Shown in pieces: positions 1-2,610 of a stretch of DNA of 64,000 nucleotides. The stretch comes from Tenacibaculum sp. SZ-18 (lineage in GTDB: Bacteria > Bacteroidota > Bacteroidia > Flavobacteriales > Flavobacteriaceae). A program made the position numbers and the translations under genes. Every line of letters begins with the position of its first letter. Position 1 is the first letter of the stretch. The DNA lies in assembly GCF_002813915.1 (NCBI RefSeq), contig NZ_CP019335.1:2463777-2527776 (forward strand), given 5' to 3'. The notes beneath the pieces are model-generated. The model searched no databases. It was not told where the DNA came from and saw only the letters and a program-made list of their open reading frames with translations.

Positions 1-1459
1 TTAAATCTTCTAATTTAAACTCCTGAATGTTTTCAACAGATTCTTTCGTTGAAGATTGGATAGCTGTAAATTTTATCCCTCCATCCTCAGAACTTTCTAA
101 TCTTTGATCTTGTGTTAATTTACCAAGTGATACTTTTTTCAACTCACCTGATAAAGCTGTTAATGTTTGAGGAGTTTCGAGTTTTCTCTGAGTACAATTT
201 CCAACTAATATCCTTATCGCTTCTCTACAAACTGTGGCATCTTCTATTCCATTGCAGATTAAATCTATTTTACTTACATACTTCTGTTGTATATCATTTT
301 TAGTATGTTTAATAAACTTATTTTTTCCAATAGTATTAATAGATAAATGTACTTTTTTTCCTTTTATTGATATCTCAACGTCTTCCTTATTTATATCTAT
401 TAAATTCAATTCATAACTATGACTATCCTTCTTTTTTGAAGTTTCAATCTCTCTAAAGATCTTAACAATACAATCTCCTTCTAACTTTTGAATAATGGTT
501 TCTTTACTTGAAACCAACTTTTCTATTTTATTATTTATTAAATCTATTCCAGTATTGGTTGTCAATTGCCCGGGAAGAACGGCTTTAAAGCGTTTTTCAG
601 CCAATGGAATAATATCTTGAAGAACTTTTTGTAACTCTCTAGCATTCTCTACACTTTTACAAATAATTTCAAATTTAGATACATAAGATTTAACCACTCC
701 ATTATTAATAACTTTTATAGCCTTTAAGTTTCTCTTCGCTGGAATAATAACCACAAAATCGCTTCCTTTATTTTTAAAGAGCACTCCCCTTTCATTCATA
801 TTTGAAAGATTAAATTCGTAAGATGTTTTTAAAACCGATTTACTAGTAGACTTAGCGTTTATAAATCGAACACTTGCTGGATAGCTATCCAATACTTCTA
901 AACCTTGTTCTACTTTACTCTTTCCCGACTCTACTGTAAAAATATTCTTGGTCAACCAAGCTAAACGATCCTCGTACCCATTTAGAGATAATCTATTTTC
1001 TGTGATTTTTTTTGCTACAGGAATAAGATTTTTTATGTCATCAACAATTTTCCTAGCATTATCTACATTTGAAGCTAATATGTAAAACGCTTTCGTGTAA
1101 CTAACTTTATCACTATTAATTATTGATTTGATCATTTTCTGATTTTGTTTAGCTATCAACTGAACTTTTATTAAGTCCTTAGATGTTTCATAACGAACTG
1201 TATTTATATCAATATCGGCAAAATTAAACTCATAAGTGATCTCTGTAACTTTTCCTTTTGTAGTTGTTTCTGTTTGAGTGAAATTTGCAACACCAGGTAA
1301 ATCCGAGGTAATAGATAAATCAAATGTTGATTTACTCGTTATTACTTTCTCTAACGAATTAGATAATTCTTCTAGTTTTGTATTAAAGGTTTGGCTTTGG
1401 ATTCCTAAAACTTGAAAATAAGTCAGAAAACAAATGGTTAGATTTATTAAAGTTTTCAT
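1..1459 (-). CDS. secreted tandem-repeat protein of unknown function, C-terminus cut off by window edge
   Basis: Open minus-strand frame of 486 codons from an ATG at 1459 running off the left edge. It starts MKTLINLTICFLTYFQVLG, a plausible Sec signal peptide. The rest is built of about three and a half copies of a roughly 130-150-residue unit. Each unit has a variable start (helical, 'KLEELSNSLEKV'-like), then a YEFNF/YEFNL/YELNL strand followed by a D-I-N or N-M-N segment, then a basic strand region, then a 'Y(T/V)SK' segment and a helix ending near IPLAEK/IPVAKK. Copies lie at about residues 24-160, 160-290 and 295-430, and a fourth begins near 430. I do not recognise the family. The repeats suggest a modular extracellular or periplasmic protein. 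No neighbour clarifies its job; the next gene is a small lipoprotein in the same direction. Confidence 0.85.
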   Translation of the reverse strand, partial: MKTLINLTICFLTYFQVLGIQSQTFNTKLEELSNSLEKVITSKSTFDLSITSDLPGVANFTQTETTTKGKVTEITYEFNFADIDINTVRYETSKDLIKVQLIAKQNQKMIKSIINSDKVSYTKAFYILASNVDNARKIVDDIKNLIPVAKKITENRLSLNGYEDRLAWLTKNIFTVESGKSKVEQGLEVLDSYPASVRFINAKSTSKSVLKTSYEFNLSNMNERGVLFKNKGSDFVVIIPAKRNLKAIKVINNGVVKSYVSKFEIICKSVENARELQKVLQDIIPLAEKRFKAVLPGQLTTNTGIDLINNKIEKLVSSKETIIQKLEGDCIVKIFREIETSKKKDSHSYELNLIDINKEDVEISIKGKKVHLSINTIGKNKFIKHTKNDIQQKYVSKIDLICNGIEDATVCREAIRILVGNCTQRKLETPQTLTALSGELKKVSLGKLTQDQRLESSEDGGIKFTAIQSSTKESVENIQEFKLEDL

Positions 1460-1557: not shown

Positions 1558-1866
1558 TTAGTTACAAGACAATAACGCTTGTAATTCTCTTAATTGATTG
1601 ACTTGTGCTTGTACTTCTGGACAGTTTTCGGCTTCATTAATAAAAGCGGTTAGAGCGTTATTATAAGCAATACAATTTGCAACTGTTTGATTTCCTGCAT
1701 AGGCTACACTTGTATCCGAAACATCAACAGATAATTGCTCTATTCGTGATGCATTACAATTCCCCGATCCCGAATCTAAATTTTCCTCATCTGAATCTGT
1801 CTCACAAGACATAATAAAAAATGAGCTTACTAATAAAAAACTTAAAAAGTAAATAGCTTTTTTCAT
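1558..1866 (-). CDS. small lipoprotein of unknown function
   Basis: 102 residues. A type II signal peptide ends at a lipobox FIMSC with Cys21, followed by acidic residues (ETDSDEEN), the pattern that sends Bacteroidota lipoproteins to the outer membrane. The mature part is short, largely helical, and holds five further Cys (Cys37 and four spread to the C-terminal end), so disulfides are possible. I know no named family for it. Single-gene unit: a terminator follows it, and a 93-bp gap separates it from the DUF4386 gene upstream. Confidence 0.75.
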   Translation of the reverse strand: MKKAIYFLSFLLVSSFFIMSCETDSDEENLDSGSGNCNASRIEQLSVDVSDTSVAYAGNQTVANCIAYNNALTAFINEAENCPEVQAQVNQLRELQALLSCN

Positions 1867-1959: not shown

Positions 1960-2610
1960 TTAATCACTAGAAAACCCTTTAACGATTAACCAAATTGGCA
2001 TTAATAATTGAACAAACGCCATTGGAAGCATTAAATTCATACTTATACCATAACCGAAGATAGAAGACAACATTTCCGTAAACATTAGTACTGAAGCTGT
2101 AATCCCAACAACTGAAATTAACCTAGGAACTAACTTTGTTGCAAACAAGGTGTAATACAATACGAAAACAGGAAAACAAGATGTTAATAATGACATATAA
2201 TGCGTCCACCAGTGTTTTTCCGAAAATACTTTTTGAAGAGCCTCTAAAGTATCTATATTTTTAATTTCGGAAGAAACCTTACTAAATTCTAATAATGAAA
2301 AAACACTTCCATTATCAATAACAATGGCTATAAAATTCAATAATGTAAAAGCAAAATAAAGCCTAGCCAAACTTGTATTATACTTTGTAAATACAGGAAA
2401 TAATAGAACTGCTATACTGATAGAAAGTATTCCACTAAACATATTTAGCAAAGTGGAAGCTATAAGTTGATTTTGATGAGTTACAGTTTCTTTTAAAAAG
2501 TCATCTGAAAATAATGGTGCTTGTAAAATTTGGTAAACAGTTACTCCAGAAACAAAAATTAAAAGGAATAAAACACCAACTATTCTTGGAATTTTAAAGT
2601 TAGAATTCAT
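1960..2610 (-). CDS. DUF4386-family integral membrane protein
   Basis: 216 residues with about six hydrophobic membrane segments (residues about 10-30, 50-72, 82-105, 135-160, 165-185, 190-212). The order and loops match what I know of the DUF4386 family, whose function is unknown. An extracytoplasmic or cytoplasmic stretch at about 105-135 (SLLEFSKVSSEIKNIDTLEALQ region) is the only large soluble part. The gene stands alone; a 14-bp perfect palindrome lies 12 bp upstream of its start and may be an operator. Confidence 0.7.
   Translation of the reverse strand: MNSNFKIPRIVGVLFLLIFVSGVTVYQILQAPLFSDDFLKETVTHQNQLIASTLLNMFSGILSISIAVLLFPVFTKYNTSLARLYFAFTLLNFIAIVIDNGSVFSLLEFSKVSSEIKNIDTLEALQKVFSEKHWWTHYMSLLTSCFPVFVLYYTLFATKLVPRLISVVGITASVLMFTEMLSSIFGYGISMNLMLPMAFVQLLMPIWLIVKGFSSD

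Follow-up and report, generated by a model that had tools for sequence, protein, structure and literature searches.

Domains of the PH superfold, which include PH, PTB, RanBD and the N-terminal domain of TFIIH p62/Tfb1, are known mostly as intracellular modules. The phosphoinositide-binding PH motif is a basic KXn(K/R)XR located in the β1-β2 hairpin. The gene described here lies at the left end of a 64,000-nucleotide stretch of Tenacibaculum sp. SZ-18 (contig NZ_CP019335.1, positions 2,463,777 to 2,527,776; hereafter the window), in a genome that consists of a single contig of 4.02 Mb. It encodes a protein with a predicted signal peptide followed by four homologous units, each of which is predicted to be a PH-like domain.

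The units resemble the PH superfold in having seven main strands and a C-terminal helix, both predicted, and the best structural matches of their models reach Z-scores of 6–8 over about 90–110 residues. They differ in sequence, with 6–14% identity to the matches of Z 6 or more, and in being bacterial, preceded by a signal peptide, arranged four in tandem and devoid of the phosphoinositide motif. A PH-like fold in bacteria is also found in the PHb family (bPH_1, PF08000). Xu et al. (2010, PMC2817789) place the PHb domain of the membrane families inside the cell and describe C5 rings, while the family described below carries an export signal and is tandem. No Pfam match of the window protein to PF08000 was seen at E up to 10, and hhalign gave a probability of 0.25% with an alignment of only three PF08000 proteins, which makes this a weak test. 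Other bacterial PH families were covered through the Pfam scans only. The literature searched yielded no description of exported proteins with tandem PH domains.

Domain organization of the protein

The open reading frame starts with an ATG at window base 1459, runs along the minus strand and exits the left edge of the window at base 2, leaving 486 amino acids inside. A preliminary description of the window had seen a secreted protein of about 3.5 tandem units, with a full length probably well over 486 residues. With the DNA left of the window added, the frame extends by 200 bases and closes at 552 residues (L002:7801-9459, minus strand), only 66 past the edge, so the expected length was too strong a statement. 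The tandem repetition holds, but the count becomes exactly four units, each of about 125–140 residues, and the boundaries first drawn by eye are close to the final ones. Secretion likewise agrees with the signal peptide visible at the N-terminus and with the similar N-termini of relatives, both judged by eye. No second copy of the gene was found in the genome in a search at E up to 10. In window coordinates, the features of the gene are:

1391–1459, minus strand: predicted signal peptide, about residues 1–23, read by eye from the translation, without a lipobox by eye; N-termini of relatives similar by eye
989–1390, minus strand: unit 1, predicted PH-like domain, residues 24–157, from unit comparison; the same region was modelled in a relative
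569–988, minus strand: unit 2, predicted PH-like domain, residues 158–297, from unit comparison; modelled alone, pLDDT 96 (m7b8b3341558e)
176–568, minus strand: unit 3, predicted PH-like domain, residues 298–428, from unit comparison; the position of lowest identity among relatives
2–175, minus strand: unit 4, predicted PH-like domain, first 58 residues (429–486 of 429–552); residues 487–552 lie left of the window

The repeat scheme of the preliminary description is real, since the unit alignments are significant for all 6 pairs. Smith-Waterman scores range from 94 to 148, while shuffles have means of 32–37 and maxima of 54–64, and for each pair 0 of 500 shuffles reached the real score (the unit cuts used here differ by one residue from the boundaries listed). 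Position-specific profiles of three of the 6 pairs were compared with hhalign, which gave probabilities of 99.6 (units 1 and 4), 99.8 (units 3 and 2) and 99.6 (units 1 and 3). Moreover, a unit profile trained on 132 units of 33 relatives, with the window protein kept out of the training set, detects four units in that protein, whose domain E-values lie between 4e-32 and 4e-41. Counting against the repeats, BLASTP of the protein against itself returned the trivial full-length match only.

Predicted fold of the units

Two structures were predicted with AlphaFold2. A full-length relative (L009), modelled from an alignment of 33 rows, reached a predicted local distance difference test score (pLDDT) of 91 and a predicted template modelling score (pTM) of 0.80. 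Unit 2 of the window protein, modelled alone from 135 rows, reached pLDDT 96 and pTM 0.89. In the unit 2 model, DSSP assigns a leading helix, a 3-residue strand, seven main strands and a long C-terminal helix. In the L009 model the elements follow in the same order, except that the last strand is broken in units 1, 2 and 4, and units 2–4 are each preceded by a strand of 3 residues. A seven-stranded β-sandwich capped by a C-terminal helix defines the PH superfold, and the DSSP order of strands and helix in these predicted, not solved, structures agrees with it. This order is also the PH topology as given in PMC2817789.

The models were also compared with solved structures. VIA-align, which in both cases re-aligned the top 1000 Foldseek matches, placed the PH domain 6f8e first for the L009 model, with Z 8.1 and a root-mean-square deviation (rmsd) of 3.9 over 106 residues. 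Chains of TFIIH, PLC-gamma, JAK2 and Dok7 follow, and unrelated folds appear from Z 3.7 down. For unit 2, the top match is the CCM2 PTB domain (Z 7.5, rmsd 3.5 over 101 residues), and all 50 matches listed are, by our reading of their titles, PH, PTB, RanBD, FACT, TFIIH or pICln chains of the PH superfold.

Three results weigh against this assignment. Foldseek returned nothing at E ≤ 0.001 for either model, its listed matches include many unrelated folds, and Z-scores of 7–8 are in a middling range for VIA-align that is common in models without a clear match. We therefore base the fold claim on the topology together with how uniform the matches are. On this footing, a PH-like fold for each unit is fairly well supported as a prediction, and it goes beyond what could be seen when the window was first described. 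The fold would then belong to a known class, and the exported four-domain arrangement would be the new part.

A family unnamed in Pfam and NCBIfam

The preliminary description had recognized no family, and indeed searches of Pfam and NCBIfam at E up to 10 left the window protein without a match. It had named self-alignment of the units and a match to a named repeat family as its checks; the self-alignment is significant and no named repeat family matches. Among 33 relatives scanned at E up to 1, 62 Pfam families were matched (best E 0.0015), and among the 25 of these listed, none was matched in more than two members. NCBIfam gave 11 families for the same relatives, with one member each (best E 0.0093). 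This is a real protein family with an unusual architecture that is unnamed in Pfam and NCBIfam, and a unit profile for it is now at hand.

Sequence matches to solved structures (Pex3, Lon, heparan sulfate sulfotransferase, interleukin-3 and others) are scattered, weak and without a theme (best E 0.0019), and were put down to chance. An RseB-like fold is disfavoured, with a Foldseek E of about 0.01 and a VIA-align Z of only 2.8.

A single pattern-based scan of named genomes yielded 38 related loci, all from Bacteroidota by title. They include the Flavobacteriaceae genera Tenacibaculum, Tamlana, Winogradskyella, Psychroserpens, Algibacter, Zobellia and Flagellimonas, among others, and further relatives occur in Cyclobacteriaceae and Flammeovirgaceae assemblies, in Larkinella and in Bacteroidales assemblies. 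Ranked by best tblastn segment, an uncultured Tenacibaculum has the closest named relative (75% identical), followed by T. soleae (47%) and T. holothuriorum (45%). With the window protein included, 35 of 39 proteins have four units (one of them, L030, is cut by a contig end) and 4 have five; 6 of the 39 stood outside the training set of the unit profile. The five-unit proteins are those of the Bacteroidales loci L042, L043, L045 and L046, of 700 residues each. Of their five units, the fourth has the weakest score with the unit profile.

The distribution of the family across genomes is patchy. In the draw of relatives, a real match was found in 1 of 58 other genomes (G041). In the order draw, 4 of 394 other genomes had one; only three candidates per genome were scored among the matches listed, so some may have been missed. 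The phylum draw gave four-unit proteins in 2 of 394 other genomes, plus three weak single matches. At the thresholds used, no relatives were found on viral contigs, plasmids or phages (best PHROGs E 0.025).

Several candidate matches were set aside. The match in G012 (L005, E 9.5e-4), from the draw of relatives, is spurious, scoring -3.5 bits against the unit profile, under the best of its own shuffles. Those in G718 and G712 sit in frames that we take to be glutathione-peroxidase-like, and that in G797 (L067, E 0.0034) has one stop inside.

One of the three weak single matches of the phylum draw looks real: it is a single-unit protein of another Bacteroidota genome, the only genome in which one was found here. 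This 155-amino-acid protein (L051:1396-1863) has a signal peptide by eye, as the window protein has, but one unit only, which scores 20.4 bits against the unit profile, compared with 6.3 for the best shuffle. It weakly resembles Pfam PH_35 (E 0.0077, below the cut-off).

The protein was also described at first as old and modular, with which the results agree. In a tree built from 66 units, drawn from 16 proteins, the position labels need 9 changes in total, where the minimum possible is 8 and the shuffled mean is 41.5. Unit 1 forms one group (support 90/85), which recurs in 93% of bootstrap trees. None of units 2, 3 and 4 forms a group of its own in the tree, and bootstrap trees unite each of them in 42%, 0% and 2% of cases, respectively. 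The units found outside their position groups are from Larkinella (L039), L032, L035 and L036, and the five-unit proteins map uncleanly onto the four positions. Among 29 distinct relatives, mean pairwise identity is 0.40, 0.38, 0.30 and 0.39 for units 1 to 4, and identity reaches 80% or more at 87 of 552 positions. Because the units mostly group by position, the duplications would predate the split of most sampled lineages. Judged from these sequences, the unit duplications look old and appear to precede most of the sampled divergence, while the deepest history is less settled.

Probable export and possible functions

Pfam and NCBIfam hold models of C-terminal sorting domains of the type IX secretion system (T9SS). 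Since neither database matched the window protein, no such domain was detected in these scans, and the modelled relative terminates in the helix of unit 4. A signal peptide, the lack of a lipobox by eye and the lack of a detected sorting domain make a soluble periplasmic protein likely.

The KXn(K/R)XR motif occurs in the β1-β2 hairpin of 0 of 135 units, with 1.45 expected in shuffles, which indicates absence rather than depletion. The β1-β2 loop region has a mean net charge of -0.83, and just 2 of the 135 units carry +2 or above there. The net charge of whole units varies widely among relatives, for unit 1 from -14 to +7.

Some genes beside the family also bear on function. In 11 of 39 loci, the gene is accompanied by a small, outer-membrane-barrel-like protein (cluster 1), which in all 11 is encoded by the immediate upstream neighbour on the same strand, with gaps of 33–111 bases, and nowhere else in the stretches examined. 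Other barrel-like genes adjoin the gene in three loci, with model matches above the Pfam cut-off in L012 and L023 and below it in L027, and a lipoprotein-like gene (cluster 3) adjoins it in 8 of 39 loci. From the export features, the absent lipid motif, the negative loop charge and the barrel and lipoprotein neighbours of relatives, we conclude with modest confidence that the protein belongs to the envelope and has proteins or peptides as ligands.

A tentative proposal may be built on these observations. The gene product would be exported by the Sec pathway as a soluble protein, most likely to the periplasm. Its four PH-like domains, joined by short helix-loop-helix linkers, would form a rod. 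The units may bind proteins or peptides, as PTB, RanBD and TFIIH p62-type domains do, and the rod could serve the outer membrane as a scaffold or multivalent clamp. The computed support consists of the four homologous units, the predicted topology and the near-fixed four-unit architecture, while the signal for export and the absence of a lipobox were judged by eye. A more specific version, which we hold with greater doubt, is that this is an undescribed Bacteroidota family of exported tandem PH-superfold proteins that serve as multivalent periplasmic clamps for outer-membrane proteins or lipoproteins. If true, this would mean that the PH fold is used outside the cytoplasm, and would provide a simple system for its role there and for its evolution by unit duplication.

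Besides the Foldseek and Z-score results above, several observations on the gene neighbourhood tell against this proposal. One of three cluster 1 members scanned matched a barrel model, under the cut-off (E 0.0019), and one of two cluster 3 members matched DUF6252, also under it (E 4e-5). Cluster 1 is missing from 28 of 39 loci, the window's among them, and those that have it share parts of a wider synteny, so they may represent one ancestral arrangement. The scanned neighbours were picked by hand after the flanks of 11 of 39 loci had been viewed, without statistical control. Cluster 3 is likewise lacking at the window's locus; there, a terminator-like hairpin (see below) separates the gene from its upstream neighbour.

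A mere spacer, in which the length of the rod matters and the units have no specific ligand, is an unlikely alternative. The near-fixed domain count (four units in 35 of 39 proteins) would suit it. However, the proportion of strongly conserved positions (87 of 552) is more than a spacer needs, although partly perhaps required for the fold, and so is the tendency of the units to hold their positions in the tree.

It is somewhat less likely still that domains of the same fold and location bind envelope lipids or glycolipids, with the protein acting as a carrier or tether. Probable export is compatible with this, but the absence of the basic motif (in the β1-β2 hairpin, the only region searched for it), the mostly negative loops and the variable unit charge speak against it. 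Least probable is a different small β-α fold that resembles PH in prediction only, as the Foldseek E-values and the commonness of such Z-scores might allow, against which stand the seven main strands followed by a long helix in both models, allowing for minor strand breaks or additions, and the 50 listed unit 2 matches, uniformly PH-superfold by title.

Genomic context of the gene

The gene sits between what we take to be rimO and a gene for an M14-type peptidase, both in the window's genome and in L009. It directly follows rimO in L010, and the peptidase gene is not seen in the stretch, while in L011 the peptidase gene is between rimO and the gene. Among 20 genomes of the same genus where no copy of the gene was found, 6 have the peptidase within 1.5 kb downstream of rimO. 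These differing arrangements indicate a variable neighbourhood in which gain and loss are indistinguishable.

One further feature lies upstream of the gene:

1506–1534, both strands: terminator-like hairpin with T runs on both sides, between the gene and an upstream gene for a 102-amino-acid lipoprotein; consensus match only

The terminator scan of 1400–2000 gave 2 matches, compared with a mean of 0.1 in shuffles, and the hairpin at 1506–1534 is a candidate bidirectional terminator. The promoter scan covered the sigma-70 type only. The predicted 102-amino-acid lipoprotein gene directly upstream (1558–1866, minus strand) has no Pfam match at E 0.01, and it also adjoins the gene in L009. Between it and rimO is a gene for a DUF4386 membrane protein (1960–2610, minus strand; E 1.3e-32).
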